Of a stretch of 36,336 nucleotides of DNA, positions 4,415-34,478 are shown piece by piece. The notes beneath the pieces are model-generated. The model saw only the letters and a list, made by a program, of their open reading frames with translations. It searched no databases and had not been told where the DNA came from. Source of the stretch: Oscillospiraceae bacterium (GTDB taxonomy: Bacteria > Bacillota > Clostridia > Oscillospirales > Oscillospiraceae); the NCBI GenBank assembly GCA_017522015.1, contig JAFXAW010000021.1:1-36336 (forward strand), given 5' to 3'. Each line of letters starts with the position of its first letter. The stretch's first letter is position 1. Position numbers and translations under genes: made by a program.

Positions 4415-4575
4415 ATGCAGGTATCCTCCTTAAAAATATGTAAGTTTGGAATAAACTGTGAAATATGTCCGCAGGCGGCGGGGAAAAACCTCCGTCAGCC
4501 TGTTTGCGCCGGAAATGCGCTTTTTATGGTGATGCATGGAGCGGGAACTGCGCCGCTGCGGCTTGGCGGCAGCGC

Positions 4576-6012: not shown

Positions 6013-6025
6013 CTTCCGCTCCCCC

Positions 6026-7465: not shown

Positions 7466-7737
7466 CACAGAACCTCCTTACGGTTGCGATTTTGGAGATC
7501 CCGGCGGGAGAAGAACAGATATGCGCACAGGAGCATCAGCTCGACTGCCGCCAAAAGCAGCAGATCTCCGCCCCCCGCGATGGCCAAAAACGTGCCCAGC
7601 GCGGTGAGGATCAGCCCCGCTGCCGTTCCGATAGCCTTTCCCCGGGTGATGACGAAAAGCAGCAGCGCGAGCGCAAAGCAGAGCAGGGCCGATACGGGCA
7701 GGTCAATGCCCGAAATGGCGTATGTAAGAAAATTCAA
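7465..7737 (-). CDS. small three-helix membrane protein in the acylation operon
   Basis: 90 residues if started at the TTG at 7737, which has GGGAG five bases upstream. A TTG at 7758 that overlaps the previous stop is possible but has no clear ribosome site. Three hydrophobic segments follow each other (ISGIDLPVSALLCFALALLL, TAAGLILTALGTFLAIAG, LLLAAVELMLLCAYLFF) before a basic tail RRDLQNRNRK. No recognised domain. It overlaps the MBOAT start, so the two are translationally coupled and this protein may be a subunit or chaperone of the acyltransferase. Function is inferred from position only. Confidence 0.7.
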   Translation of the reverse strand: MNFLTYAISGIDLPVSALLCFALALLLFVITRGKAIGTAAGLILTALGTFLAIAGGGDLLLLAAVELMLLCAYLFFSRRDLQNRNRKEVL

Positions 7738-7754
7738 ACGCGCTCCCGCCTTTC

Positions 7755-13269: not shown

Positions 13270-13287
13270 ACGGAAAAATTGAATCGC

Positions 13288-13450
13288 TTGGATAGAGGCG
13301 CGGTATCCATCAGTACCGGTTGATAAAGCAAGGCAGCTGTCAACGGGAAAGGGGCCACCGCCGAAGTGCGAAAGTCGGCCTGGGCTTTCGTTGCTGGGTC
13401 GGCAGAGAATATCTGCCGGACTGTCACAGAGTTTTTGTGAAGCGCTATCA
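13288..13450 (+). ncRNA. lysine riboswitch (L box)
   Basis: The leader carries the conserved L-box core. GATAGAGGCGCGG follows the P1 strand, then AGTACCGG. Next comes GGGAAAGGGG with CCACCGCCGAAGTG, the most conserved lysine-riboswitch string, then TTGCTGGG, and finally GCGCTATC, whose CTATC pairs with the opening GATAG to close P1. Paired arms for the intervening helices are visible, for example TCGGCAGA with TCTGCCGG. Riboswitches of this class bind lysine and usually switch off biosynthesis or transport genes by forming a terminator, and one follows at 13500. It precedes a polar amino acid ABC importer, which marks that importer as a probable lysine transporter. Confidence 0.9.
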
Positions 13451-13499
13451 GTGGTATTCGGTTTTTCCGGCATGGCCGTGAATATTCCGTATTTTCCAT

Positions 13500-18531: not shown

Positions 18532-18603
18532 CTATAGACCGAACGGTTTGGACTCTTTCACAGCCGGCTGCGCCGCGGGCGCAACAGAGGGGGAATTGCA
18601 AGT
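18532..18603 (-). repeat. degenerate gene trailer, copy A (coding-like C-terminal tail)
   Basis: Directly after the stop of the 18604 gene, the minus strand has a C/T-rich stretch and then a reading frame ending APAAQPAVKESKPFGL and TAG. It matches copy B at 33535, which ends AAQAAIKEPKRSDL and TAA, in frame and to the same end position. The codons differ mostly at third positions. It is followed by the terminator at 18502. It looks like the 3' end of a protein gene that lost its body. Confidence 0.6.
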
Positions 18604-19074
18604 TTATTCTTCCATATATTTGGGATAACTCTTTTTGAATCTGGAAATCAGGCTGTCATTCTCTGTAATCATAAACAGACACGTGCTGTCTACAGCATAA
18701 AGCTCAAAATCTGCGTACGGATGCTGAAGCTTTGGCGGATCGGTATGCGGGTTGTATTGCCCTTTTTCAAAGTGATCAACGTAAGGCAAGCCCTGCTTTA
18801 CTATGTCGTCCTTCTGATGATGAGAAGGGATTGCGGAAAACACCGCCCATATCCACTGGAAGTCATCCGCTTCGAGCATGTTCATCAATTCTTTTGTGCT
18901 TAAGAGAAGATAGGTGCTGTTATTCAGAAGCTCTTGATATTCTTTTTTCATGGGGTATGCTTCAAAATCGCTGATCAGCCACAAATAGTCCTGATCGGCC
19001 AAGCCCAGGTCGAGCAAGACTTGCTTTAGCTGCGTATAATATCTGAATTCATGGTTGCAGTACAGTCTTTTCAT
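18604..19074 (-). CDS. small cytosolic protein of unknown function, immunity-protein-like
   Basis: 156 residues from an ATG at 19074 behind GGGGTGAG. An ATG ten codons earlier lies inside the -10 box and is rejected. Rich in Tyr, Trp, Asp and Glu, with no signal or membrane helix. A central segment DYLWLISDFEAYP and ADDFQWIWAVFSAIPSHH look like conserved blocks. The composition recalls immunity proteins of polymorphic toxin systems and, loosely, DUF2691-like proteins, but I cannot assign a family. It has its own promoter and is followed by the trailer repeat and a terminator, forming a self-contained unit downstream of the adhesin gene. Confidence 0.7.
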   Translation of the reverse strand: MKRLYCNHEFRYYTQLKQVLLDLGLADQDYLWLISDFEAYPMKKEYQELLNNSTYLLLSTKELMNMLEADDFQWIWAVFSAIPSHHQKDDIVKQGLPYVDHFEKGQYNPHTDPPKLQHPYADFELYAVDSTCLFMITENDSLISRFKKSYPKYMEE

Positions 19075-19094
19075 TTTTCTCACCCCTTTATCGG

Positions 19095-19123
19095 ATTCTA
19101 ACATCTTTCAGCTTCATGTGCAA
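19095..19123 (-). promoter_or_regulatory. promoter of the 18604 gene
   Basis: Minus strand TTGCAC, 17 bases, TAGAAT, about 20 bases before the start at 19074. The TTCTTGCA...TGTTGCACA string just upstream resembles the promoter block at 30851-30896. Confidence 0.7.
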
Positions 19124-19217: not shown

Positions 19218-22200
19218 TTAGTTTTTTTCTTTCTTGCGGCGGGGAAGGAGCATCAGGGCCGTGATGGCGAAGCCAACAACACCGATCGCAGCAAGGAAGC
19301 CCATTCCGGACAGATTGCTGAAATCGCCGGTTTTAGGATTGTCTTCATGGGTGTTGACCACCGTGAAGTTCCAGCCGTCCTGCCGGACGGTCTTGTTATA
19401 GCCGCTGGGTACGGAGGGCTCATCCACCGTCCACTCGAACTCGTCTGTGAGATCCTCCCAGGTGTAGCGCCAGCCGTTCGCTGCGCTGAGCGTTACGGTG
19501 TCGAATTCCTCGCCGTCCCGATACAGGGTCACATTTACAGAATCGGGATGGGATACGCCCGCACCATACCATACCTTGCTGACACCGATGTCGATGTAGG
19601 TAAACTCTTTGGTGTTGGTGATGGTGAAGTCATAGCCCTCGCCGGTCACATTCTTGGTGTAGCCCTCCGGAACGGTCTTTTCGTCCACGTTCCAGGTGTA
19701 TTCGTCGGTGAGGCTGGTCCAGATGTGATTCCACTGGTTTTCCGCATTCAGAACCACGGTGTCGTATTCTTCGCCGTTCCGGTACAGGACGGCCTCCACG
19801 GCCTCGGGATGGATCACGCCCTCAGAGGCGACCCAAACCTTGGTGACTTTGACTTCCACGGGGTTGATGGTGCGGGTGTTGACGATGGTAAACTTCAGGC
19901 CGTCTTCGGTGATGATCTCCTTGGTGTAGCCGGCGGGAACATCCACTTCGTTGACGCTCCACACAGACACGTCCGTGAGCTCGGCCCAGGTGTGGGTCCA
20001 GTTGTTGTCGCCGCTCAGGATGACGGTGTCATGCGCTTCGCCATCCCTGTACAGGACCACCGCAACGGATTCGGGCAGATTCTTGCCGCCGTTGTGGCGC
20101 CATGCCTTGGTGACGGTGATCTCCGCGGGGTTGGGGGTCCGGGTGTTGGTGACGGTCCAGTCGTTGCCCTCGTTGGTGACGGACTTCACATATTCGGCGG
20201 GGATTTCCGCCTCGTCCACACTCCAGCTGTATTCGTCGGTGAGGTTGGTCCAGGAATAACGCCAGTTGTTGTTTTTGCTGAGGGTGACGGTATCAAAGGC
20301 TGCGTTATCCCGATACAGGGTCACTTTCACGGAATCGGGTCTTGCGTGATAGCCGCCGTCATCCCAAACCTTTTCCACGTTGACTGTCAGAGCTTTGATT
20401 GCGGTGTTTTCGATGCGGTAGGTGTAATCGATCTGATTTTCCGTGATGCCGGTGAGTCCGGCGACGCGGATGTGCATCTGCAGCTCGGTGACGGCATCGG
20501 CGGTGCCGGCGTTCTTGACCACGGCCTTCTCCTCTGCGGTAACGATGCGCACCAGGGGGCTGATGTGGTAGCCTGCGGGCGTGGTGGTCTCTGCCAGATA
20601 GTAGATGCCGGCCTTTTCGATGGGCAGCGTCAGCGCGCCGTTTTCATCGCTGAACACTTCCTCGCCAAGTTTGGAGGTCAGCTCCGCATCTGTATAGAGG
20701 GTGAAGCCCGCGCCGGGGATGACCTTGGTGTTGTCGTCCGCGTCGACTTTCAGAAGATTCAGTCCGTTGTTATGGGTGGTGTATTTGTAGGTATTTCTGA
20801 CGATGATCCGATTCTCATACTCCCAGATTAAGCCGTTTGCTTCATCTGTGATGGCACTGGTGTAGGCGGCACCGGCGGTGTTTTCGGTGAGGGTGTAGGT
20901 GGTGCCCCAGGGGATATTTTCGATGGAGATGTTTTCGCCGGCCTTCAGGGTGAAGGTCTTGTCGAAAGCGTCATCGCTGCAGTCCAGCGTGAAGCTATAC
21001 TCCGCATCGGCGTACAAGCCCTTGGGATCGGTGACTTCCTTCGCAATATACAGGCTGCCTCTGCTGCGGACGTTGGCCACGGTGAGTACGCCGTTTTCGA
21101 AGCTGCCCGCGCTGACGTTGCCGACAACCCAATCCCAGAAACCTTCAAAAATATTTTTGTTTTCATTGAGGGTCCAGCGGATCTCCCCATCGTCTTCTGT
21201 GACGGTCACGGTCCAGGTTGCGGAGGTGGCTTCATAGCCTTCCGGCGCCTTGGTTTCGGAGAGGATATAGGTGCAGTCGATGGGCTGGTCATTCTGCTCG
21301 TAGCCGTACAGGAGGTCGAACAGTACGGTGCCGTCAGCGCCGGTGGTGAAGGAAACGGAAGATGCCACGGTTTCGCCGTCAGCGGCCAGCCGGTCCAGGG
21401 TGAAGATTGCGCCGGCCAGAGGCTCGCCCTGTTCGCCAACCTTTTTCACGGTCAGGGCGGTGGGCACTTCAAAGATTTCTTCATTGCGGGTGTACCGGTT
21501 GGTGACTGTGGTGATTCCGGAGATTTCGGTGCCGGGGGCTGTCATGCCGGGATTGGCTTCCGCCAGGGTGACGGTGGTGCTGCTGTAGCTGACATCCCAG
21601 GTGTAGCCGGGAACATTTGCATCCGGCTCGGAAATGGTGTATTCACCCAGAGCCAGGTTTTCCAGCGTCACGCTCCAGCCGTTGGCGTTGTGCAGCTCCA
21701 CTGTTTTGCTGTATCCGTTGGGGCCGCCGATCACGACGGAAACAGAGTCCAGACCGCTGGGAACAAGGCCGTCCGTGAATGCCTTGGTAAGGGTCAGCTC
21801 GCCCAGCACGGGATAGTTGACAACGGTCAGCAAGTCGGTGGCAATATCGAAGCCGGTGCTTCTGCCGGCAACCAACGTGATTTCCGGCTCATAGGTGGTT
21901 TTGCCGTTGGCTGTGACCGCAGCAATTACGACCTTGTACAGCTGATTGCTCAAATAGTATCCTGCGGGCGCCTTGGTTTCCCGGAGGTAGTAGGTCGCAG
22001 AGGTTTGACCGTCCGGCACGGTGAAGCCATCAAAATGCGCGTAACCGTCAGCGCCGGTGGTCTTGGTCGTGACTACGTTTGCGCCTGCTTCGTCAGAGGA
22101 GAGGGTGAAGACTGCGCCGGCAAGCGCGGTGCCGTTTTCGCTCAGCTTCTTGATGTAGAAGTCGGCGGCTGTCCATTCCTCATAGGTGTTGGTCAGGGAC

Positions 22201-24911
22201 AGGTCAATGGGGGTGTCATCCACAACCCGGAAGATGCCGGAGGTGATTTGGTTATATACGGTGGTTTCCAGATCGCCGTAGGTCACGCCGATCCAGGTGT
22301 AGCCATGGACAGAGGCGAAGCTCTCGTGGATGAGATACTCGCCAAGGGGCAGGTTTTCCAGAGAAGCGGCCCAGCTGTTTTCGCTGTTGAGCTCCAAATG
22401 CCAGGTGGAGCCGATGGCGGTGATGCTGTTCTGGCTGTCACGGGTGATGGGGCCGTGCACAATGACCACTGCGTCCAGGCTGGGCTTGTGGGCGTCCGCC
22501 ATGCCGGTGATGGTCTTGCTCAGATTCAGGCGGCCCAAAACAGGTTCGTTGTAGATGTGCAGGCTGTTGCTGCCTTCTGTATAGGTTGCGGAAGATCCGT
22601 CAGGCAGCGTTACCGACAGCGTGTAAGAGGTGATCTGCACATACTGATCGTTTCTCAGCTCCTCTGTGCTCCGGGAAGTCAGGCGGATGGCATACACATA
22701 AGGATCTGCATGGTATCCGGCCAAGGGCGCGGTTTCTTTCAGATAATAGGTGCCGGATGCTGCGTTTTCAATGTCAGCAAAATTGAGGTGGGCCAGGCCG
22801 CCGTCATCCGTGGTGATGACGGCCACCGCGTTGGAGCAGGCTTCGTCGCTATACAGGGTGAAGCCAACGCCGTCCTGCGCAAGCTGGGTGTCCGCGGCGG
22901 TTTTCAGCACGGTCAGCACCGGGTATTCGGAAACAGGCGTGCCGACATTCTTCGTGTAGCTGTTGGTATAGGTGACGGTGCCCAGATGGATGTTTTCGCC
23001 CTGATAAACCGGATTCATGCGCACGGTGACGGAATCGCCGTTGATGGCATAGTCCTCAATGCGATCCCCATTGACGGCGATCGTGGTGGTTCTTGTGTAG
23101 CCGGGGACATCCGCATGGTATTCCGTGAACACAAAGGGCGTGTCATACTGGTAAACAGGGATTTTGTATTCGCCGGTGGCGCGGAGCATGGAATAGGTCA
23201 CATCAATGAGGCTGTCGCCGTCGCCATCCCGGTCAATGCCGGTGTCCACCAGGAACCAAAGGCCTTCGGCCTCCGCGGGCGTCATCTCCACCCCGTCCAC
23301 GATGAAGACCTTTTCAATGGCAATATGAGCGGCGGAGGGCTCCAGCTCGGTGACGGTCCAGTTGCCGTAGATATAGGTGCCGGCGGTGATTTCGATGGTG
23401 GGATTGTTGGCGGCGTTGGTGTCCCCGTCATCCAGCGCGTAGTAGCCTGCGCCGGGATTGGGGTTATAGGTGCCGGAGTGGCTGTAGGTGTCCCAGCCGT
23501 GGAAGGTGTACAGAAGTCCGTTATCGTAGTCGTAGAAAGAGGTGCCGGTCACATACTCGGTATCATAGACATACTGGGAACCGATCTTTACATTCGTTAC
23601 GGGAGCGGGCGCGTCCGGCGCGCCGGCCGGCAGGTTGGTATAAGTGCCGTTTGTGTTGTAGACCTTCCATTCGTAAGTAACGGTGACGGGCTTGCGCTCG
23701 TTCTCAATCGCAACGCGGCGCATAACGGTATAGGGTCCGGAGGGCGCGGTGCTGTACTGAACGGTACCGTTGGGCGCGATGCAGATATAGAGGGCATCGG
23801 CTTCGCTGGTTTGGGTTCGGCCTCTTTCGTCGGTCAGCGCGATGCTGGCCATCTGCCAGTCCTGGTTGCTGATCTCCGTCATCTTATAGTAGCCAAAGGT
23901 GATCTCGGAGCCGCCGATGATCTGGGCTTCCGTTCTGCCGGCGGGGATGGTGGCCGTCAGCGTCAGGGGCGCGAAGCCGGGATCCACCGCGGTGGCAGAG
24001 GTGGGGGGCGTGGTCAGGCTGGCCTGCAGCATCTTCTCCAGCTTGAAATGGAAGGAGGTGGCAGCGGTCTGGGACACGGCGGCTTGGGGGATGGTCTTGA
24101 AGACTTCCATTTCGCCGGGCTCAACCTTCTTGACCAGCAGGCCGTCCACATGGATGTGCTCATCCCTGTAGTTGTACTGGTTGCAGTTCATGCCCCGGTC
24201 GTTGAGCTTGTTGTCGCGGCACATGATGGAGACCCACTTGATCTCATACTCGGTGTCCCGGTAGGTGGTGCCGTTGATGGTCACGCTGCCGAAATCCTTG
24301 AATGAGGCGGCGTTGTGACCGTTGGGGTAGGACGCGATGTACTGGGTTACGATGGATTCCTCGGAGATGTTCCGGATGCCGTTCTGGGTGTACATGGTAC
24401 TCCAGCTGGCGTTCTGCTTGATGTTGGGGATGGTCCAGGCGCCGTCCCAGTTGTTTGCACTGCCGGAGGGACCGTAGTAATTGATATAGGATCCGTTGGG
24501 GTTGGTGATGTTGCCGGGAGATGCCAGGAAGAAGTGGATGGGCAGCTCACCCGCATACAGGGCGGCGCCATAGCATTCGCCCTCGTGGCCGTCGGGACCT
24601 TCGCAGCCCTCGGTGGCGGTGCAGGGGATCCAGACGAGGCACTCGCCATCGTTTTCCAGATGCTCTTCCTCTCCCTCCAGGATGCAGCCTTCCTCACAGA
24701 CTCTTTCCGCAGGGGGCGCCGCCGTCAGGAGGTCGGGTTCCCCGGCGGGAGCCGGCTCCGCAGGAACGGGCACGTCCGAGGGAGTGGGGTCTCCGGTTAC
24801 AACCGGGATGTCGGTATTTTCGTTTCCGGTTTCCGTTGCAAAAACCTGCGCGGGAAGCGTCGAGAGCACCATGACAAGCACAATCAGGATGCTTAAAAGT
24901 TTTTTCTTCAT
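19218..24911 (-). CDS. giant SpaA/Cna-B repeat adhesin or pilin with NPKTG sorting signal
   Basis: 1897 residues. A signal peptide ends near residue 26 (VMVLSTLPAQVFA). A Pro/Glu-rich linker leads to a six-Cys segment (Cys72, 76, 91, 97, 103, 113; GHEGECYG) and then an N-terminal adhesin-like region. Next come many SpaA/Cna-B beta-sandwich domains with the marks of isopeptide-bonded folds: ETAPLAGYH, ETKAPAGYY, ETKAPEGYE, ETTTPAGYH. Four tandem Cna-B repeats of about 88 residues precede the sorting signal NPKTG at about 1858-1862, a hydrophobic helix and a basic tail RRKKEKN. It is anchored to the wall by the sortase encoded 29 bases upstream. The ATG follows AAAGGAGG. It probably mediates adhesion to host or mucus glycoproteins; the ligand is unknown. 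Confidence 0.92.
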   Translation of the reverse strand: MKKKLLSILIVLVMVLSTLPAQVFATETGNENTDIPVVTGDPTPSDVPVPAEPAPAGEPDLLTAAPPAERVCEEGCILEGEEEHLENDGECLVWIPCTATEGCEGPDGHEGECYGAALYAGELPIHFFLASPGNITNPNGSYINYYGPSGSANNWDGAWTIPNIKQNASWSTMYTQNGIRNISEESIVTQYIASYPNGHNAASFKDFGSVTINGTTYRDTEYEIKWVSIMCRDNKLNDRGMNCNQYNYRDEHIHVDGLLVKKVEPGEMEVFKTIPQAAVSQTAATSFHFKLEKMLQASLTTPPTSATAVDPGFAPLTLTATIPAGRTEAQIIGGSEITFGYYKMTEISNQDWQMASIALTDERGRTQTSEADALYICIAPNGTVQYSTAPSGPYTVMRRVAIENERKPVTVTYEWKVYNTNGTYTNLPAGAPDAPAPVTNVKIGSQYVYDTEYVTGTSFYDYDNGLLYTFHGWDTYSHSGTYNPNPGAGYYALDDGDTNAANNPTIEITAGTYIYGNWTVTELEPSAAHIAIEKVFIVDGVEMTPAEAEGLWFLVDTGIDRDGDGDSLIDVTYSMLRATGEYKIPVYQYDTPFVFTEYHADVPGYTRTTTIAVNGDRIEDYAINGDSVTVRMNPVYQGENIHLGTVTYTNSYTKNVGTPVSEYPVLTVLKTAADTQLAQDGVGFTLYSDEACSNAVAVITTDDGGLAHLNFADIENAASGTYYLKETAPLAGYHADPYVYAIRLTSRSTEELRNDQYVQITSYTLSVTLPDGSSATYTEGSNSLHIYNEPVLGRLNLSKTITGMADAHKPSLDAVVIVHGPITRDSQNSITAIGSTWHLELNSENSWAASLENLPLGEYLIHESFASVHGYTWIGVTYGDLETTVYNQITSGIFRVVDDTPIDLSLTNTYEEWTAADFYIKKLSENGTALAGAVFTLSSDEAGANVVTTKTTGADGYAHFDGFTVPDGQTSATYYLRETKAPAGYYLSNQLYKVVIAAVTANGKTTYEPEITLVAGRSTGFDIATDLLTVVNYPVLGELTLTKAFTDGLVPSGLDSVSVVIGGPNGYSKTVELHNANGWSVTLENLALGEYTISEPDANVPGYTWDVSYSSTTVTLAEANPGMTAPGTEISGITTVTNRYTRNEEIFEVPTALTVKKVGEQGEPLAGAIFTLDRLAADGETVASSVSFTTGADGTVLFDLLYGYEQNDQPIDCTYILSETKAPEGYEATSATWTVTVTEDDGEIRWTLNENKNIFEGFWDWVVGNVSAGSFENGVLTVANVRSRGSLYIAKEVTDPKGLYADAEYSFTLDCSDDAFDKTFTLKAGENISIENIPWGTTYTLTENTAGAAYTSAITDEANGLIWEYENRIIVRNTYKYTTHNNGLNLLKVDADDNTKVIPGAGFTLYTDAELTSKLGEEVFSDENGALTLPIEKAGIYYLAETTTPAGYHISPLVRIVTAEEKAVVKNAGTADAVTELQMHIRVAGLTGITENQIDYTYRIENTAIKALTVNVEKVWDDGGYHARPDSVKVTLYRDNAAFDTVTLSKNNNWRYSWTNLTDEYSWSVDEAEIPAEYVKSVTNEGNDWTVTNTRTPNPAEITVTKAWRHNGGKNLPESVAVVLYRDGEAHDTVILSGDNNWTHTWAELTDVSVWSVNEVDVPAGYTKEIITEDGLKFTIVNTRTINPVEVKVTKVWVASEGVIHPEAVEAVLYRNGEEYDTVVLNAENQWNHIWTSLTDEYTWNVDEKTVPEGYTKNVTGEGYDFTITNTKEFTYIDIGVSKVWYGAGVSHPDSVNVTLYRDGEEFDTVTLSAANGWRYTWEDLTDEFEWTVDEPSVPSGYNKTVRQDGWNFTVVNTHEDNPKTGDFSNLSGMGFLAAIGVVGFAITALMLLPRRKKEKN
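19335..20398 (-). repeat. four tandem Cna-B repeats in the adhesin stalk
   Basis: Four copies of about 264 bases each encode V-x-K-V/A-W at the start, then LYRDG/LYRNG, then a W in NNW or NQW, then SLTDEYTW-type and VPxGYTK-type motifs, and end in VTNTR, IVNTR, ITNTK or VVNTH. The Lys of the first strand and Asn of the last could form intramolecular isopeptide bonds, as in known Cna-B domains. Confidence 0.85.
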
Positions 24912-24940
24912 AATCTGTTTCCTCCTTTAGGGGCGGCGTT

Positions 24941-25750
24941 CTATTTCAGGATGCCCACCAATACATACCGGGCATCATTATATTCATAGGTGCAGGTGGA
25001 GAGCGTGACCACCCGATCCTGCGGGGTGGGCTCGGCGGCGCCGGTGAAGGTGGATTTGGAAACCGCGTCCTGCAGCCAGAGGAAGAACTCCTCGTCGGAT
25101 GCAAATTCCATTTTCCAGGCGTCGTCATTCATGTCGGTCACATATCCGGCCACAAATTCTATTTTGTAATTTCCGTCGGGCGTCATAAGCAGGCCGGTGG
25201 GATGCTGATCGTAAAAGGCCTGGTCCTTGTATTTGGTGATCTGGTTGAACATGATGCCGTTTTGCATATGGTGGCCGTACAGGATGGTGTTTCGGTCGGA
25301 CAGATCCCGCTCGTTCCGGTAATCCATGAAGATGCTGCCTGCGCTGTTGCTGTTTCCGTCAAAGAGACGGTACAGGTAATAGCTGTTGTCCGGGCCCTGA
25401 ACCACCGGATAGTTGATGTTCGTGCCTTCAATACAAATCCAGCCGGTCACATCGGGATTGATTTCCTGCAGAGCATCGAAATCCACAAGGGGCCAGACTG
25501 TGCCGTCCGCTTCTTCTGCGGAGACAGCCGTCCCGGGCTGTGAAGCTTCCGGACGGAGGGGGGAAGACTCTGCCTTTTCCGACTCCGCGGAAGCAGAAGG
25601 CGTCTGCGGGACAACATACTGCATCAGAACTTCGTAGGCATCTTCCCCGGCTTTGTTTTCCCGCCACTGCCGACAGAGCCCGAGGCCAAAGTAGACCGCT
25701 ATGCCGGCAAAGAGAACACACAGGATAACCAGTGGTATTTTATGCTTCAT
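24941..25750 (-). CDS. class B sortase
   Basis: 269 residues. An N-terminal membrane helix (residues 5-24) and a Ser/Glu/Pro-rich linker (about 48-85) precede the sortase domain. Catalytic His160 (ILYGHHM), Cys253 in TLSTCTYEY and Arg261 (DARYVLVG) are all present. The TLSTC motif and the helix-containing insert EEFFLWLQDAV before it are typical of class B. It cuts the NPKTG signal of the adhesin encoded immediately downstream and joins it to the wall or to another subunit. The ATG follows CAGGAGG. It ends in TAG, which shows that amber is an ordinary stop here. Confidence 0.93.
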   Translation of the reverse strand: MKHKIPLVILCVLFAGIAVYFGLGLCRQWRENKAGEDAYEVLMQYVVPQTPSASAESEKAESSPLRPEASQPGTAVSAEEADGTVWPLVDFDALQEINPDVTGWICIEGTNINYPVVQGPDNSYYLYRLFDGNSNSAGSIFMDYRNERDLSDRNTILYGHHMQNGIMFNQITKYKDQAFYDQHPTGLLMTPDGNYKIEFVAGYVTDMNDDAWKMEFASDEEFFLWLQDAVSKSTFTGAAEPTPQDRVVTLSTCTYEYNDARYVLVGILK

Positions 25751-29844: not shown

Positions 29845-29931
29845 TTCGCACCCCTATAAACTGGAATTGATTTTGATTATAAGAAGCTTAACCTTTGAAA
29901 TAGTTTAATAAAACATGAATTGTCTGCAAAA

Positions 29932-29959
29932 AATCCCCACCTGCGCACAGGTGGGGATT
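29932..29959 (-). terminator. terminator (trailer unit F)
   Basis: AATCCCCACCTG and CAGGTGGGGATT form a perfect 12-bp stem with a 4-base loop; the minus strand continues with six T. It ends the nitroreductase gene at 30034. Confidence 0.9.
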
Positions 29960-29967
29960 TTGTCTGC

Positions 29968-30033
29968 TTTATGAAATCCGGACGCGGGGATTTTAAGTTC
30001 GCGGCTGGGGCGGCGCGAGGGAAAAGAGAGAGA
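29968..30033 (-). repeat. degenerate gene trailer, copy F
   Basis: After the stop of the nitroreductase gene the minus strand has a C/T-rich stretch and then a frame reading RAAPAANLKSPRPDFIK. It resembles the trailers at 18532 and 33535 but has lost the stop at the usual place. It is the most diverged of the copies that I accept. Confidence 0.4.
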
Positions 30034-30762
30034 TTATTTCTGAAAATCGTCTAAAAAGACCCCGACGGAGCGGGTCATTTCCCGGGAGAAATCGGAATTG
30101 TATTTCCGGTTGCAGAAGGCGCGGATCCATTCGGCATAGTCCTGCGTGCCCGCTTTTACGGAAAGCATCTGCTTAAGCTCATCGGCATCCATATCCCGAT
30201 AGCCGTTTTCGTGCACGATGTGGCGCATATCTGAGCGGGGCGGCTTCGGGCGGCTGATCTGCTGCTCGGTGGGATAGCCGAAAACGAGCATCGCCGCCGG
30301 GAAAACATAGGGCGGCAGGCTGAGCAGTTCCCGCTGCTTTTCTGCGTTTTCCATGATGTCGCCAATGTAGCAGGAGCCGATGCCAAGACTTTGCGCCGCC
30401 ACAACGGCGTTCTGCGCGGCAATGTTCGTGTCGCTGACGGCGAGCATTAAATCGCCCACGCCGGGCAGTCTCGGCTCACAGCCGGATTCCAGAAAAGCCT
30501 GATACCACTTGCGGCAGTCCGCGCAAAACACAAGCACCAGCGGCGCCTTTGCGATAAAGGGCTGATGGTCGCAGCTTTCCGCAAGCTCCGCTTTGAGCTG
30601 CGCATCGGTCACGTGAATGATCGTGTAAAGCTGCTGATTTCCCGCCGTGGGGGCATTTACCGCGGATTCAAGAATAACGGCCGTCTCCTCAGGTGTGATG
30701 GGCCTGTCCGTAAAAACGCGCACGGATTTTCTCTCTTTGAGCTGCTCAATGACGCTGTTCAT
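30034..30762 (-). CDS. nitroreductase-family FMN protein
   Basis: 242 residues, ATG behind GTGAGGAG. Motifs: ERKSVRVFTDRPITPEE (FMN phosphate and dimer contacts), LESAVNAPTAGNQQLY, and AAQNAVVAAQSLGIGSCYIG, followed by LPPYVFPAAMLVFGYPTEQQ. This is the NfsA/FRP-type fold, with an added C-terminal segment (about residues 185-242) that often caps the active site. It probably reduces nitroaromatics, quinones or flavins with NAD(P)H. The promoter overlaps a palindrome, so expression is probably controlled. Followed by a trailer repeat and terminator. Confidence 0.88.
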   Translation of the reverse strand: MNSVIEQLKERKSVRVFTDRPITPEETAVILESAVNAPTAGNQQLYTIIHVTDAQLKAELAESCDHQPFIAKAPLVLVFCADCRKWYQAFLESGCEPRLPGVGDLMLAVSDTNIAAQNAVVAAQSLGIGSCYIGDIMENAEKQRELLSLPPYVFPAAMLVFGYPTEQQISRPKPPRSDMRHIVHENGYRDMDADELKQMLSVKAGTQDYAEWIRAFCNRKYNSDFSREMTRSVGVFLDDFQK

Positions 30763-30796
30763 ATAGTCTTCTCCTCACCGATCATAGGATACATTT

Positions 30797-30825
30797 ATTA
30801 TACGCCTGTCTTGTGATTTCACAAG
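30797..30825 (-). promoter_or_regulatory. promoter with palindromic operator for the nitroreductase gene
   Basis: Minus strand TTGTGA, 16 bases, TATAAT, about 30 bases before the start. The -35 box is part of CTTGTGAAATCACAAG, a perfect 7-2-7 palindrome (30810-30825), a probable repressor site. Confidence 0.75.
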
Positions 30826-30850
30826 AGGGCATGGTTTCAAGTTTTTATTT

Positions 30851-30896
30851 CATTATAACACAGCTTGTGTGCAACAAAAGGCCTTTGCAAGAAAAA
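30851..30896 (-). repeat. conserved promoter block, copy 1 (TGTG palindrome plus TATAAT)
   Basis: Minus strand TTGCAAAGGCCTTTTGTTGC, then ACACAAGCTGTGTTATAATG. It shares about three quarters of its positions with the block at 34015-34060, including TTGCAAAG-CCTTTT, the ACAC...TGTG dyad and TATAATG. It lies right after trailer copy E, so the trailer and promoter block form one spacer unit. It gives the nitroreductase gene a second, upstream promoter. Confidence 0.6.
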
Positions 30897-30952
30897 ATCC
30901 AGTTACCCGGATTCTTTGATGGCTGCCTGTGGTGCGGTGCGCAAAGGGGGGA
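30895..30952 (-). repeat. degenerate gene trailer, copy E, with short terminator
   Basis: After the stop of the 30953 gene the minus strand reads a C-rich stretch, then TAPQAAIKESG and TAA (30903-30905). The last codons overlap a small hairpin (AATCC with GGATT) followed by six T, a weak terminator. The peptide matches copies B and C in QAAIK, with different codons. Confidence 0.55.
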
Positions 30953-31387
30953 TTATTTATAGAAATCAAATAGTTCTTCGTAGAGTTTTCCTGTTTGCGC
31001 TTTATCGCCCCAAGACAAAGGCTCATCGGCATAACTTAAAGTATGAAAAGGATCTACTGTGTTAAGTTCGCTGGGTAATTGTTGCCATATAGAGTAACAC
31101 ATTTTTGCGTAGTCTTGGATTGAAAAGATATTTGAAAAATAAATTGCTTTCAAATCTTCAAGTAAGCACTTACCAAAGGTATCGACAGAAAAATCGTTAT
31201 ATTCGTATTTCCAAAATCTTTGCAAAACATCAAAGGTGGCATCGCAGTCGGAAGAGCAACTTTCTAATTCCAAAAGCATATCATTGTCAGAATTTGCAAG
31301 GAACATTTCATCAAGTTTTTTATTATAATCTTTACCTGTGGTTAGCCCTGTTTTCCATAGTAACGATTTGCATATCAATCTTTCCAT
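30953..31387 (-). CDS. AT-rich small protein of unknown function
   Basis: 144 residues, ATG behind AAAGGAGG. Acidic and helical, with many aromatic residues (FDVLQRFWKYEYNDFSVDTF, AKMCYSIWQQLPSELN). No signal peptide or membrane helix, and no family that I recognise. Size and composition are like immunity proteins, which often occur without a nearby toxin. Its base composition is much more AT-rich than the operons on the left half of the window, which suggests recent acquisition. Followed by trailer copy E. Confidence 0.72.
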   Translation of the reverse strand: MERLICKSLLWKTGLTTGKDYNKKLDEMFLANSDNDMLLELESCSSDCDATFDVLQRFWKYEYNDFSVDTFGKCLLEDLKAIYFSNIFSIQDYAKMCYSIWQQLPSELNTVDPFHTLSYADEPLSWGDKAQTGKLYEELFDFYK

Positions 31388-31489
31388 ACTGCACCTCCTT
31401 TTTATAATGATAGCATAGCGGTACGAAAAAGAGGGAAATTATGATGATCTGGATTACCGTTTCGGGAGGCTTTTTGATATTGCCTGTCC

Positions 31490-32023
31490 CTATTCTTCGA
31501 TGATTTTCACAAGCTCAACGAAGTCCTTGCGCTGTTTTGTGCGGAGTTTATCGTCTGCCGAAGCATATCCCAAAGTGATAACAAGCCGCACTGCACTGTC
31601 TAAACCGCAAATTTCGCGGATTTTTGCATCCTCGAACCAACCAAGGATACAAGTGCCAAGCCCCTGCGCGGTTGCTTCGGCGGTAATATACGCCGACACG
31701 ATGCCGATGTCGATCGAGCGGTAATCGTTGTGTTTAACCTTGGCGCCGAATGCCGCAGTTTTAACGTAAGGCTTTTCCGACAACACAATCATAACGGGAG
31801 CGTCCGTTGCGAATTTGTTCATGCCCATTCCTTGGGTTGCTTTCGCCACTTTTTTCGCCGTCTCACCCTTGCAAACGGTTATTTGATACGGTTGACCGTT
31901 GCATGCAGACGGGGAAAGCCTTGCGGCCGCTAAAATGCAGTCTAATTTTTCGTTTTCTACCGGTCTGGACGAATCGTAAGAGCGGCAGGACTGTCTGTTT
32001 TCTGCAATTTCGGTATAATTCAT
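31490..32023 (-). CDS. nitroreductase-family FMN protein
   Basis: 177 residues from an ATG at 32023 behind AAAGGAG; a further upstream extension lies in the gap after the PHP gene and has no ribosome site. Motifs: ENRQSCRSYDSSRPVENEKL, AAARLSPSACNGQPYQITVC, and AYITAEATAQGLGTCILGWF, then VRLVITLGYASADDKLR. This is the short SagB/YdfN-like nitroreductase type common in Clostridia. It ends with TAG. It follows the PHP phosphoesterase with a 58-base gap and may be cotranscribed with it. Substrate unknown. Confidence 0.88.
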   Translation of the reverse strand: MNYTEIAENRQSCRSYDSSRPVENEKLDCILAAARLSPSACNGQPYQITVCKGETAKKVAKATQGMGMNKFATDAPVMIVLSEKPYVKTAAFGAKVKHNDYRSIDIGIVSAYITAEATAQGLGTCILGWFEDAKIREICGLDSAVRLVITLGYASADDKLRTKQRKDFVELVKIIEE

Positions 32024-32081
32024 AATTTTCTCCTTTGTAATTGAAACCCGATAAACCGAGGTGGCGTTTTTGTTGTATTTA

Positions 32082-32786
32082 TCATTCTTTGCTTGTGCAG
32101 AGGCGCCATTCATTCTCCAAAGTAAAGATTTCCATTTCCCCGTTTTTTACGCGGCGGATGAAATCTTCAAGGCTGCTGATTGGAGTTTCGCAGCAAAGGC
32201 CTGCGAGCTTTTTCTGTTTTGCGGCGCTGTGATTATCCGAACCCGCAAACTCGATCAGGTCATAGCCTTTGGCGTACAGACCCGCCAAATGGTTCTCGTG
32301 ATCTGTGCGGCAGGCGTTCACCACCTCGACCCCGTGGACGTTTCTGGGGAAAAGACGAATATGGTCAATGTACGGCGCTTCCCGGTACGGATGCGCCTGA
32401 ATCACAAGCGCGCCCTGCTCCATCATGAAGGAAAGCTCGGCGCTCTTTTTCATATCCATAATTTCCGGATGAGCAAGAAACCACGCCTTGTCAAGGCCAT
32501 AAATCAGAAAATCCGTGCCGCCGTAGGAAAGCTCGACGCCGCAAAAGACCTTTATGCCAAGTGTTTTGCCGATTTCCAGGCCTTTTTCATAGTCTGAAAA
32601 ATAGAATTGAAGCTTTTCTTCATAGGATTTTTCTTTTTCGACGTTGATGTTGCCGTCAAGAAAGTGGTTTGTGATAAAAACGCCGTCATATCCAAGCTTC
32701 TTATAGAATTCCAAGGTTTCCTGAATCCCTGCCCGTGCGCAGCGGCTCACAGGAAACGTGTGTAAATGTGTTTCATACTTATACAT
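32082..32786 (-). CDS. PHP-domain phosphoesterase
   Basis: 234 residues from an ATG at 32786 behind CCGGAGG; the longer frame upstream crosses a probable promoter and is rejected. The metal ligands of the PHP fold are visible in order: YETHLHTFPVS (His7, His9), VFITNHF, FCGVELSY, VIQAHPYR and FAGSDNHS. These enzymes hydrolyse phosphate esters such as histidinol phosphate or nucleotide derivatives, using two or three metals. No histidine-pathway gene lies nearby, so this is probably a stand-alone phosphatase. It is followed by a nitroreductase gene. Confidence 0.87.
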   Translation of the reverse strand: MYKYETHLHTFPVSRCARAGIQETLEFYKKLGYDGVFITNHFLDGNINVEKEKSYEEKLQFYFSDYEKGLEIGKTLGIKVFCGVELSYGGTDFLIYGLDKAWFLAHPEIMDMKKSAELSFMMEQGALVIQAHPYREAPYIDHIRLFPRNVHGVEVVNACRTDHENHLAGLYAKGYDLIEFAGSDNHSAAKQKKLAGLCCETPISSLEDFIRRVKNGEMEIFTLENEWRLCTSKE

Positions 32787-32848
32787 GGGGCCTTGCCTCC
32801 GGATTGTTGTAACACGTTGTGCGTGAAGGGAAATGACGGATTTTCGCT

Positions 32849-33307
32849 TTATCCGTATAACCAACTTGACGGAACCAAAAACGTGTATGGCGCCGTAACG
32901 ATTGCAAATGTGAGTGAAAACTTGAGCCGCAATAATTTGTCCGCTTTTTTGAAGGTGATCAGGTAATTCAGAATAAAAATCAGAGCAGAGGAGATAACCA
33001 GCGCGGGCAGCGTTAAATATAGCTCGTCGCCCATTTGCCCGACTTCAAAAACCGTCATGAGCAGTAGCATATATCCTGCGCCGATAAGATCGGAAATCAT
33101 GCCGAACAGATAGATTTTTAGGATATGCCGTTTGTACCACTGCTTTTTGTCCGCAATTTTCAGCACGATCATGCTGAGGATCAAAACGATGCTGTCAATA
33201 ATAAAATTGCCGGGAAGCACAATCAGCCATAGCTGCGGAAACAGCAAAAGCATCCAAAACGGGAACAGCACATTATAAAGTTTAACCTCGCGTTTCTTGT
33301 GATTCAC
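32849..33307 (-). CDS. small integral membrane protein of unknown function
   Basis: 152 residues if started at the GTG at 33307, eight bases after AAAGGG. Earlier candidate starts fall inside the TATAAT box at 33344-33349. Four or five hydrophobic segments are visible (FPFWMLLLFPQLWLIVLPGN, IIDSIVLILSMIVL, ILKIYLFGMISDLIGAGYML, LPALVISSALIFILNYLI) separated by short basic loops. No domain recognised. The next gene (PHP) starts 62 bases later. Confidence 0.7.
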   Translation of the reverse strand: MNHKKREVKLYNVLFPFWMLLLFPQLWLIVLPGNFIIDSIVLILSMIVLKIADKKQWYKRHILKIYLFGMISDLIGAGYMLLLMTVFEVGQMGDELYLTLPALVISSALIFILNYLITFKKADKLLRLKFSLTFAIVTAPYTFLVPSSWLYG

Positions 33308-33343
33308 AGTCAAAACCCTTTCGCAAAACAGGCATTTCATCAT

Positions 33344-33349
33344 ATTATA
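33344..33349 (-). promoter_or_regulatory. -10 box of the membrane-protein gene
   Basis: TATAAT on the minus strand, about 35 bases before the GTG start. The best upstream -35 candidate, TTGTCC, is 15 bases away, so the promoter is less than ideal. Confidence 0.45.
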
Positions 33350-33423
33350 ATATATCGTATTTGTGGACAATTCAATCCTTCAACATAAAGAAAACAGGTG
33401 GTGGGGCGATAAGTTTTGCTTTA

Positions 33424-33461
33424 TCACGAACTGCCGGATTCTTTTGCAGACTGCGGGGCGA
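33424..33461 (-). repeat. degenerate gene trailer, copy B2 (no gene attached)
   Basis: Minus strand frame APQSAKESGSS ending in TGA, close to APQAAIKESG of copy E with one codon lost. No gene precedes it: it lies directly after the terminator of copy B, so two trailers stand in tandem. Confidence 0.5.
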
Positions 33462-33490
33462 TTTGCAAGGCGCAACAAACAAAAAGGAAA

Positions 33491-33516
33491 ATCCGCCCGG
33501 GTTTCCTCGGGCGGAT
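33491..33516 (-). terminator. terminator (trailer unit B)
   Basis: ATCCGCCCG and CGGGCGGAT pair in an extended stem with a short loop, followed by TTTTCCTTTTTG on the minus strand. The sequence is nearly the same as the terminator at 18502. Confidence 0.85.
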
Positions 33517-33534
33517 AAAGTTGCTTATAAATCC

Positions 33535-33587
33535 GATCGCTTGGGTTCTTTAATCGCGGCCTGTGCTGCCATCAGCAAAAGAGGGAA
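33535..33587 (-). repeat. degenerate gene trailer, copy B (best-preserved)
   Basis: The minus strand after the stop of the 33588 gene reads FPLLLMAAQAAIKEPKRSDL and TAA, in the same frame as that gene. The AAQ-A-A-I/V-K-E-x-K pattern matches copy A (AAQPAVKESKPFGL). Between A and B, the Ala, Lys, Glu and Leu codons differ mainly at synonymous positions, the sign of a once-translated sequence. Confidence 0.6.
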
Positions 33588-33995
33588 TTATAGCCAATCG
33601 CCGTTCGCATCTTTCTTTTCAAAATATGTATATTGGTTTAGCCTGGAAAACATCTTTGCAAGGCGCTCCTTCAAATCTACACCAGTAACGATTACAAGTG
33701 CGCTTTCGGCAAATTGAGATAACACAGCCGCAAATTCGTATTGCGTGGATTCACGCCCCTTATACCAATCCAAATCCTCAACACAAATACACTGATGTTG
33801 TGCGTAGGCTATAAGCAGGTCTGTTTTATCCTCTTTCAGTTTTTGAAGAATTGCATCAGTTAACTGTTCACTGGAAATAGCAATGGCCTTTTCTTTCCTC
33901 TTTGTAATCTCTTTGACAACAGTTGTTTTTCCACCGTTAGTCGGTGCAGATAAAAAAACAAGACCGCTTTCCATTACAAGTAACTTGTTCAGCAT
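33588..33995 (-). CDS. minimal P-loop ATPase-like protein
   Basis: 135 residues from an ATG at 33995, eight bases after GAGG. Walker A is APTNGGKTT near residue 20, and a probable Walker B is CICVEDLDWY near 72. VIVTGVDLKERLAKMFSRLN near the end resembles a sensor/arginine-finger region of DnaA-type or other AAA+ ATPases. At half the size of a normal AAA+ module it has no lid domain and no other domain. It may be a nucleotide-binding accessory or immunity-type protein; role unknown. Followed directly by trailer copy B, in frame after its stop. Confidence 0.72.
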   Translation of the reverse strand: MLNKLLVMESGLVFLSAPTNGGKTTVVKEITKRKEKAIAISSEQLTDAILQKLKEDKTDLLIAYAQHQCICVEDLDWYKGRESTQYEFAAVLSQFAESALVIVTGVDLKERLAKMFSRLNQYTYFEKKDANGDWL

Positions 33996-34014
33996 ATTTC
34001 TCACCTCTTGAGTG

Positions 34015-34060
34015 CATTATATCACACCTCGTGTCCGATAAAAAGGACTTTGCAAAGGGA
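34015..34060 (-). repeat. conserved promoter block, copy 2 (TGTG palindrome plus TATAAT)
   Basis: Minus strand TTGCAAAGTCCTTTTTATCG, then GACACGAGGTGTGATATAATG. It matches the block at 30851-30896 and lies 20 bases before the P-loop ATPase gene. The ACAC...TGTG dyad sits directly upstream of the -10 box, where a repressor or activator could bind. Confidence 0.6.
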
Positions 34061-34088
34061 AATCCCCTCGGATTGCTCCGAGGGGATT
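34061..34088 (-). terminator. terminator (trailer unit C)
   Basis: AATCCCCTCGGA and TCCGAGGGGATT form a 12-bp stem with a 4-base loop, with a short T run on the minus strand. Same stem as at 27642. Confidence 0.85.
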
Positions 34089-34105
34089 CGTTATTGGGTT
34101 AAATC

Positions 34106-34175
34106 TTAGCCCTTGATGGCAGCCTGCTGGGCCATTCACAAACTGCACCAATCAAAAGTTCTTAAAACAAGGAAA
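34106..34175 (-). repeat. degenerate gene trailer, copy C
   Basis: After the stop of the 34176 gene, the minus strand carries a short frame MAQQAAIKG and TAA (34106-34108), matching the QAAIK core of copies B and E with other codons. The bases after it (GGCTAAGATTTAACCCAA) are almost those before the adhesin terminator at 19134. Confidence 0.55.
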
Positions 34176-34478
34176 TTACATATCAAAGAGCAACAATTCC
34201 ATCTCTTTTTCAAACGATGATGAATCAGCACTCTTCCAACTTTTTGGCTGCCGCCATTCCTCTTTCAGTTCTCGTGCTTCCATCGCATCCAATGCGTATG
34301 CTTTCACAAAAAGGAGTTCTTCCATTTCAAAGCTATCTCCGATATATTGCATACCGGTTGATCTCAGATATCCCTGAAAGCCATACTTTTTGATTGCCTC
34401 TGTATAACCCCTCGCTATCGCATAACACAAATCGCGACCATCGACCTCATACTTAAAATCACCTTTATGATATTCGGG
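34176..34478 (-). pseudogene. N-terminally truncated small protein, immunity-like
   Basis: The frame is open from just after a TAG at 34479-34481 and has no ATG or ribosome site before the conserved-looking segment GDFKYEVDGRDLCYAIARGY; internal TTG and ATG codons are poor starts. The rest (TEAIKKYGFQGYLRSTGMQY, LLFVKAYALDAMEARELKEE, FEKEMELLLFDM) reads as an intact C-terminal half of a small acidic cytosolic protein. I know no family name. The 5' part has been replaced by the methyltransferase fragment on the other strand. Followed by trailer copy C. Confidence 0.65.

Follow-up and report, generated by a model that had tools for sequence, protein, structure and literature searches.

What places the same short 3′ end behind genes that are otherwise unrelated? 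The window, by which we mean the whole 36,336-nt stretch analyzed (contig JAFXAW010000021.1, from an Oscillospiraceae bacterium whose genome is referred to in the following as G000), poses this question. The first-pass annotation had placed similar trailers after at least five genes on the minus strand, with stops at 34176, 33588, 30953, 30034 and 18604, and proposed a cassette array, in which variable cargo precedes a fixed 3′ end, leaving the mechanism open.

Trailers in the window

The positions and the strand of the five trailers were correct, and the described layout, a C/T-rich start and a coding-like tail with its own stop, followed by a terminator, is visible in the sequence (Table 1). 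A sequence-only model (R1) was built from the five trailers and searched against the 1.87-Mb genome. It returned these five, on which it had been trained, at E 3e-11 to 7e-6, and the next match was not below E 0.14. Since this search found trailers at this locus only, a genome-wide 3′ element was ruled out. Misbinning of the contig was ruled out as well, because the same locus lies within a 328-kb contig of a sister species (G061). No Rfam family corresponds to the trailer; the sole Rfam match at the gathering threshold was a lysine riboswitch at 13285–13455.

An independent matrix was derived from 91 trailers of other genomes, with 200 shuffles of the window as the null (largest shuffled maximum −3.0, mean −18.1). 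The trailers at 34127, 33564 and 30930 scored above every shuffled maximum, the one at 18571 fell between the mean and the largest, and the one at 30009 was indistinguishable from chance. By these scores, three of the five trailers are clear, one (18571) is weak, and one (30009) is without independent support. A sixth, decayed copy without a gene was detected by R1 as well; its counterpart in G061 is well preserved (E 4.6e-5). Of the promoter blocks annotated in two spacers, the upper one (34015–34055) has copies with no more than 8 mismatches in other genomes' cassettes, while the relationship of the other to it was recognized by eye.

Table 1. Features of the cassette array in the window. 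Scores are from the independent matrix, with the scored position; E-values are from R1 in the own genome.
Feature	Position	Strand	Remarks
Cargo gene, 84-aa ORF	34176..34430	−	Resembles 3′ part of gene downstream of ppdK in another genus (G114); product 43% aa identical to L076 over 93 aa; no Pfam or NCBIfam family
Trailer 1, putative hybrid site, CAGGC core 34123–34127	34091..34143	−	Score 18.0 (34127); exact pattern match
Conserved promoter block of next cassette	34015..34055	−	3 mismatches to block in other genomes' cassettes
Cargo gene, 138 aa, weak DnaA ATPase domain match	33588..34004	−	No counterpart in searched G061 region
Trailer 2, best copy: TTCCCTCTTTTGCTGATGGCAGCA + CAGGC + ppdK-like tail	33527..33585	−	Score 52.3 (33564)
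Decayed tandem trailer, no gene before it	33431..33468	−	E 0.64; exact pattern match in G061 (C7:128032)
Three genes without own trailers: 163-aa membrane protein, PHP-like metallohydrolase (weak), nitroreductase	31490..33340	−	Conserved in G061
Cargo gene, 144 aa, no known family	30953..31387	−	Relative (66% aa) in L139 also precedes trailer
Trailer 3	30895..30951	−	Score 45.6 (30930)
Promoter block related to 34015–34055	30851..30890	−	One 1-nt gap; by eye
Cargo gene, nitroreductase, 242 aa	30034..30762	−	
Proposed degenerate trailer 4	29971..30029	−	Score −21.6 (30009), not above chance
Cargo gene, 166 aa, no known family	18604..19104	−	Inserted relative to G061
Weak/degenerate trailer 5	18534..18592	−	Score −8.3 (18571)

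The trailer ends in a copy of the ppdK 3′ end

In its 3′ half, the trailer reproduces the end of ppdK, which encodes pyruvate, phosphate dikinase (identified by TIGR01828), and the match continues into the ppdK stop and terminator. The tail peptide Q-A-A-I-K-E-S is the PpdK C-terminus, which the first-pass annotation had overlooked. Comparison of 44 ppdK/trailer pairs showed agreement to the right of CAGGC and hardly any to its left, CAGGC and a few other positions having been preset on the trailer side by the search pattern. The left half bears no relation to ppdK but is conserved between genera: in the cross-species consensus, the left ≈27 bp read TAATTTCCCTCTTTTGCTGATAGCACCA, and the right part reads CAGGCTGCTATCAAGG..., followed by a stop, a hairpin and a terminator. 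The core forms a dyad, with two 8-bp arms separated by 8 bp, and is conserved in sequence; covariation, considered as proof of the dyad, did not exceed column composition.

A pattern scan of 84,980 species yielded 98 stretches, of which 80 were kept. Six of these were dropped as chance matches (Bradyrhizobium, Comamonadaceae, Bordetella, Janthinobacterium, Hymenobacter and Paenibacillus). The remaining 74 loci look clostridial and together hold 94 trailers, behind different genes, showing that the trailer extends beyond this locus. By title, 72 loci belong to Clostridia, Clostridiales, Oscillospiraceae or Ruminococcus, one to Bacillota and one to an uncultured bacterium; L154 may be a chance match, and three pairs of loci share an assembly (L140/L168, L153/L188 and L148/L183). 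An animal gut sample is named in 50 of the 74 titles. Nearly all the records are metagenome-assembled genomes (MAGs), and the arrays appear to occur in several dozen uncultured Clostridia, mostly gut inhabitants of herbivores. The first-pass annotation placed similar tail peptides in spurious predicted proteins of gut Clostridia, which agrees with the scan and with the trailer/ppdK matches. Reversed-pattern controls gave no match in 40 and in 400 genomes. Prevalence across the family was 7 in 400 genomes, a count that includes two unchecked one-mismatch candidates (G081, where ppdK lies on a contig other than that of the match, and G348) and one genome, G415, repeating another (G309). A short core pattern (14 of 61 genomes) was dropped for longer patterns, several of its matches being ppdK or other coding sequence.

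The arrays themselves lie behind ppdK. The window's contig ends short of this gene; in G061, the array begins directly behind it. In all 31 of the 74 loci that include ppdK, the gene is 118–3390 nt upstream on the same strand. A ppdK match was found in 27 of 40 array genomes picked for holding a pattern match: 18 had it on the same contig, with the array downstream, 7 had it ≈110–260 bp from a contig end, and in 2 it was unlinked.

Cassette units and their borders

The repeating unit consists of a terminator, a promoter, usually one gene, diverse in kind, and a trailer, with median sizes of 745 bp (n = 31) and 878.5 bp (n = 38). Multi-gene units also occur (e.g., 31490–33340 in the window). 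A promoter block is shared by cassettes of several genomes, and terminators follow the trailers. Within each locus, all trailers are on one strand (74/74), and for 44 of the 94 trailers the cargo stop precedes TTTG by exactly 12 nt. The 86 cargo sequences, some same-genome duplicates among them, fell into 71 clusters. Neither conjugation genes nor an integrase of the cassettes' own occurred among the 25 listed of 36 Pfam families in 70 scanned proteins.

Most of the window locus is common to both sister species, since it is 97.6% identical to that of G061 over 14,430 bp. Unit 18604–19104 and the two units in 33588–34430 have no counterpart in the searched 60-kb region of G061, which carries a different gene there. 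The sister species thus differ by whole gene-plus-trailer units. The two observations that the first-pass annotation took as contrary to a cassette array, a trailer confined to one locus and an invariant gene order among relatives, were not made, and the proposal of variable cargo before a fixed 3′ end is supported.

Near-identical cassettes were found in different species representatives (L123/L144, 95% nucleotide identity; L143/L185, 98%; L146/L163, 99%), with almost nothing alignable between the loci beyond the shared cassette. Transfer detectable as cassette identity above ppdK identity was not borne out in the two pairs measurable for both: the L139 cassette is 72.5% identical to that of the window (ppdK 71.7%, with G061), and the L162 cassette is 83% identical to that of G278 (ppdK 82.6%). 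Being no closer than ppdK, these cassettes give no sign of transfer.

Right borders of the cassettes are at the core, and left borders fall between core and terminator in L123/L144, L143/L185 and L151/L118. Both indels between G000 and G061 break between hairpin and terminator, and several borders are 20–60 bp off the core. Such borders in the hairpin or terminator, together with the repeated nature of terminators and trailers, would suit homologous or hairpin-mediated recombination between these repeats, shuffling genes after natural DNA uptake, the ppdK tails being mere homology. We consider this very improbable, because it leaves unexplained both the fixed location behind ppdK and the conserved left half of the trailer, which is unrelated to ppdK but like the attP half-sites of large serine recombinases (LSRs).

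LSRs at the ppdK core

In 5 of 46 genomes, including the query's own, an LSR gene lies next to a trailer and shares its strand. Four of the five have the LSR domains PF00239 and PF07508, and the fifth is without the N-terminal domain. LSR genes join the core in three ways, as judged from the sequences. In the viral contigs L274–L277 (two distinct sequences), the core is inside the LSR gene, 151 nt before the gene end, as an attP within a phage gene; an endolysin gene is beside the LSR in L274. In L263, L264, L266 and the provirus L278, the LSR frame crosses the core and ends 28–31 nt past CAGGC in a ppdK-like tail, the attR-like junction seen at arrays; upstream of the LSR in L263 is a tail-length tape measure gene. 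An attL-like junction occurs in L272, where ppdK leads into the 3′ end of an LSR of the L274–L277 type, and probably in L268 and L269 too. Within L272 (genome G309), the LSR remnant beside ppdK differs in type from the LSR at the array, so that the two ends may derive from separate elements.

The left ≈27 bp of the trailer resemble, but only partly agree with, the half-site of the phage LSRs that integrate at ppdK. A half-site pattern of the cassette type had no match in viral contigs, nor did two stricter trailer patterns; the general trailer pattern had none because the continuation of the phage attP is ATTAACG. A search of viral contigs for relatives of the L266 LSR was negative as well. 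No resident LSR common to the array genomes was found; their other LSRs are diverse, without a type in common. A PF07508 match was absent from 5 of 20 array genomes (MAGs, possibly incomplete), and G000 has one, unlinked to the array. The window itself contains no integrase, as had been annotated, and no cassette circle or excision junction was seen.

On these comparisons, the window probably carries the downstream portion of a small-cassette array accreted at the 3′ end of ppdK, integron-like, by LSRs acting in trans; the mechanism left open by the first-pass annotation is now tied to that site. The trailer would be a hybrid attachment site, with a phage-type left half-site and a right half from the ppdK end. 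LSRs of phages and related elements use the ppdK end as attB, and the attP is located at the 3′ end of the LSR gene itself. Brought by passing elements and acting in trans, these LSRs could also join the phage-type half-site of a cassette, presumably circulating as a circle, to the ppdK end. Each insertion, taking place next to ppdK, would restore the C-terminus of PpdK with both sites still available for use, and cassettes would therefore stack beside ppdK as integron cassettes do at attI. Serine integrases are reported to be strict in their choice of site pairs (PMC3783163); accretion would thus require the right halves to be interchangeable, as we infer them to be.

The units might instead be decayed prophages or integrative elements that repeatedly entered ppdK, each leaving one gene and one attR, with single cassettes immobile. 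Large elements do occupy the ppdK site (L263, L267, L272 and L084), the ppdK ends of close relatives diverge after the core even without arrays, and several window trailers are decayed. Nevertheless, such passive accretion is unlikely: the gene beside attR in integrated elements is an LSR, whereas cassettes have a host-like gene, often with the 12-nt spacing, and the units are uniform in size, retain promoter and terminator, and in some cases recur near-identical between otherwise unalike loci.

Comparison with known systems

Most of what is known of cassette capture concerns integrons, which use tyrosine integrases. Like integron cassettes, the ppdK units are tandem, same-orientation, mostly single-gene units of ≈1 kb with very diverse cargo; each terminates in a recombination site, and they are gathered at a single landing site in the chromosome. 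They differ in that a motif scan found no convincing IntI beside the arrays, the landing site is the ppdK 3′ end, and the linked recombinases are serine rather than tyrosine recombinases. Integron cassettes also usually lack a promoter (PMC6557892) and are driven from a common one, whereas a ppdK unit has a promoter and a terminator of its own.

SCC/ECC elements, as far as covered in the cited sections of PMC6222049, likewise combine LSRs (Ccr) with a site at the 3′ end of a conserved gene (rlmH), dyad-symmetric sites and direct repeats at the ends; a dyad-symmetric site and a regenerated 3′ end of the target gene are present at ppdK as well. However, ECC elements span tens of kb and carry ccrAB, while the ppdK units are as a rule below ≈1 kb and without recombinase. 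The temperate phages with attP inside the LSR gene (L274–L277) share the core CAGGCTGCTAT and a similar left half-site, but carry phage genes and the LSR; the cassettes carry neither, and their left half-site consensus is distinct.

A precedent for the site itself comes from PvCTn-like conjugative transposons of Bacteroidota, whose 20-bp attB overlaps the same codons of the ppdK 3′ end and whose insertion regenerates the stop (PMC11005914, in the sections cited). By eye, their attB, GYSGCNCARGCKGCHRTHGA, covers the same codons as in the array genomes, but the array ppdK continues ATC-AAG, not RTH-GA. These elements are large and conjugative, have their own integrase and belong to another phylum; the cited sections mention no small cassettes. 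A tyrosine recombinase could similarly move the ppdK cassettes, the LSR elements being neighbors at a hot spot; the core dyad would also suit such an enzyme, and tyrosine recombinases are present in 9 of 10 array genomes tested. We nonetheless think this improbable. The genes joined to the core are LSR genes, a motif scan of the 74 loci revealed no convincing tyrosine recombinase beside the trailers, and no tyrosine integrase common to the arrays emerged from that scan or from 30 integrases of 10 array genomes, where the sole type common to most was a XerC/D-like pair.

A search of mainly open-access journal articles returned no description of ppdK cassette arrays. We tentatively suggest that the arrays could be a second, separately evolved capture system of the integron type, with serine half-site cassettes, the ppdK 3′ end in the place of attI, and LSRs supplied by phages. 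If true, phage integrases would serve a chromosome-borne cassette pool common to Clostridia, and gene-cassette logic would have arisen more than once, here with serine recombinases and at a housekeeping gene. The array model might also account for the many assemblies of this kind that break ≈120 bp behind ppdK and, if correct, points to one predictable spot, just behind ppdK, for accessory genes of uncultured Clostridia.

The trailer repeats the end of ppdK

The first-pass annotation described a common trailer behind five unrelated minus-strand genes of the window. The trailer itself is real, but in a comparison with an independent matrix only three of the copies were clear, one was weak and one did not rise above chance; a sixth, decayed copy was also present (Table). 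A model built from the five trailers matched nothing further in the window's own genome, G000 (next E 0.14). Across 300 genomes of the family it matched four: G000, its sister species G061, G278 and G148. In G278, three trailers 1.05 kb apart lie directly downstream of ppdK, the pyruvate, phosphate dikinase gene, with an unrelated gene before each, and the G148 match is the ppdK end itself. The identity of ppdK was confirmed by TIGR01828. At its 3' end, ppdK encodes ...RVPIARLAAAQAAIK followed by a short variable tail in almost every locus surveyed; in a few loci the survey returned a second, different gene end. The ppdK end is repeated in the trailer from the core, CAGGC, onward. No ppdK match was found in G000 and, since the window is the whole of contig C21, the gene presumably sits in an assembly gap.

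Among 44 ppdK/trailer pairs, in which the trailer side was partly fixed by the search pattern, identity to the right of CAGGC was high (mostly 0.6–1.0 over 16 nt) and that to the left was low. The ppdK of genomes with arrays bears the cassette type of right half, with a stop-codon hairpin forming 4.9 of 6 pairs (18 tails), compared with 1.9 in array-less genomes (11 comparable ppdK tails). Trailers form 4.8 pairs (52 trailers; shuffled 3.6, maximum 4.0 in 500). In array genomes this hairpin shows compensatory changes, both at the end of ppdK and in the trailers; it is absent from array-less ppdK. Right halves differ between the close relatives L132 and L191 (ppdK 94.7% identical in nucleotides) and likewise between array-less relatives, a pattern consistent with repeated integration at that end of the gene.

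Coordinates of features in the window and in related loci
Feature	Location	Position
Acyltransferase-type genes	window	4431–9914
Lysine riboswitch	window	13285–13455
Trailer-bearing unit	window	18604
Region of the surface-protein gene and adjoining sortase-like gene (by appearance)	window	19218–25750
Sixth trailer copy, decayed, without gene	window	33431–33468
Further units	window	33588–34430
End of ppdK	G061, C7	near 125380
Trailers	G061, C7	from 127916 on
ATATCACT hairpin runs	core–terminator interval of L143 and L146	about 1000–1190 and 1200–1290 (oriented)

Arrays lie behind ppdK

An exact pattern scan of one genome per species (84,980 species), for which we estimate about two chance matches, gave 98 stretches, 80 of which were examined. 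Six of these belonged to phyla or genera unrelated to the rest; in the remaining 74 loci there are 94 trailers, which share one strand within any locus and have the consensus TAATTTCCCTCTTTTGCTGATAGCACCA-CAGGCTGCTATCAAGG. Exactly 12 nt separate the cargo stop codon from TTTG in 44 of the 94. The trailer is rare in the window's family (7 of 400 genomes, two of these being candidate one-mismatch matches). ppdK lies upstream, on the same strand and 118–3390 nt away, in 31 of the 31 loci that include it, some of which share an assembly. With one mismatch allowed, the pattern matched 74 times in 40 array genomes and the reversed control not at all. A ppdK match was present in 27 of the 40, with trailers downstream on the same contig in 18. 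In seven, ppdK ended within about 110–260 bp of a contig end (distance confirmed for G302, G318 and G339), so assemblies tend to break directly behind ppdK. The remaining two, G316 (partial ppdK match) and G335, had no ppdK–trailer link.

Cassettes and their cargo

The median distance was 745 bp from ppdK to the first trailer (n = 31) and 878.5 bp from trailer to trailer (n = 38). The cargo is diverse: 86 sequences fell into 71 clusters, and 70 scanned proteins matched 36 Pfam families, the commonest (YbjQ, nitroreductase, DMP19) with two members each, while each of 25 defence models matched a single member. The promoter block of the window recurs in cassettes of L125 and L265 (one genome), L148 and L183 (one genome), L184, L186 and L076. 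Near-identical cassettes occur in representatives of different species (L123/L144, 95% of nucleotides; L143/L185, 98%; L146/L163, 99%), with hardly anything alignable outside them. Their right border is the core, and the left falls from the core up to the terminator. By contrast, where both could be compared (L139 with the window, L162 with G278), cassettes were no closer than ppdK. The array reading proposed from the sequence alone is supported, and its landing site, the ppdK end, has been found.

Inside sites of L143 and L146 are runs of short hairpins spaced by ATATCACT, another repeat family. Downstream of ppdK in L076 (G114) are cassette-like genes with a different trailer type (GCACCACAACCCCCGCCGAGAAATCGGCGGGGGTT), among them a relative of window gene 34176.

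G000 and G061 have 14,430 bp in common at 97.6%. The tabulated trailer-bearing unit and further units have no counterpart in the 60-kb G061 region searched; G061 instead has a long surface-protein gene adjoining ppdK. Neither break is at CAGGC; both fall past the small hairpin that follows the core but before the terminator. The acyltransferase-type genes (by appearance) of the window are almost wholly absent from G061, where their flanks lie close together; no trailer is tied to the position of this indel. The window also encodes a 1897-aa surface protein with SpaA/Cna_B domains, adjoining a sortase-like gene (by appearance), and the 3' end of its gene bears a decayed trailer-like tail. The lysine riboswitch lies upstream of an apparent amino-acid ABC transporter operon.

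Large serine recombinases at the ppdK end

With the large serine recombinase (LSR) of L159 as query, any LSR match was found in 16 of 46 genomes, and an LSR adjoining a trailer, in the same orientation, in five (G340, the query, G339, G338, G308 and G309). The LSR frame traverses the core in L263, L264 and L266, and stops 28–31 nt past CAGGC in these and in provirus L278. In viral contigs L274–L277 the core lies inside an LSR frame of 613–620 residues, 151 nt before its end; it constitutes the phage attachment site (attP), which is read in two frames. Behind ppdK, L272 has an LSR 3' end of the L274–L277 type, whereas L268 and L269 have the apparent end of another LSR (by eye); these junctions look like attL. 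Both PF00239 and PF07508 are present in the LSRs, with the exception of L267/L159, which lacks PF00239. A tape measure gene is present in L263 and an endolysin in L274. Bacteroidota conjugative transposons are known already to use the ppdK end as attB (PMC11005914).

An LSR is plausible as the enzyme class behind the cassettes. No LSR was common to the array genomes: a PF07508 protein was present in 15 of 20 and absent in five, and ten such proteins were diverse. The cassette half-site was not found in viral contigs.

L084 (G297), L159 and L185 share a motif, ATCAAGGGTTTT, just behind ppdK, followed in L084 and L159 by ParA-like genes, which suggests another integrative element at the site.

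A model for cassette capture

If right halves are interchangeable, a circular cassette with its phage-type left half could recombine with the ppdK end and come to adjoin ppdK. Insertion would rebuild the ppdK C-terminus and leave both site types usable, and the ppdK and cassette sites would follow the logic of attI and attC in integrons. This model is inferred. Serine integrases are described as strict about site pairs (PMC3783163), which counts against it, as do the failure to find the cassette half-site in viral contigs and the lack of a common LSR. Integrons and SCC elements work similarly, yet the array lacks defining features of each, and we therefore assign it to neither. We tentatively entertain, at somewhat less than an even chance, a separately evolved integron-type capture, in which phage-supplied LSRs would add cassettes next to ppdK, its 3' end acting as attI.
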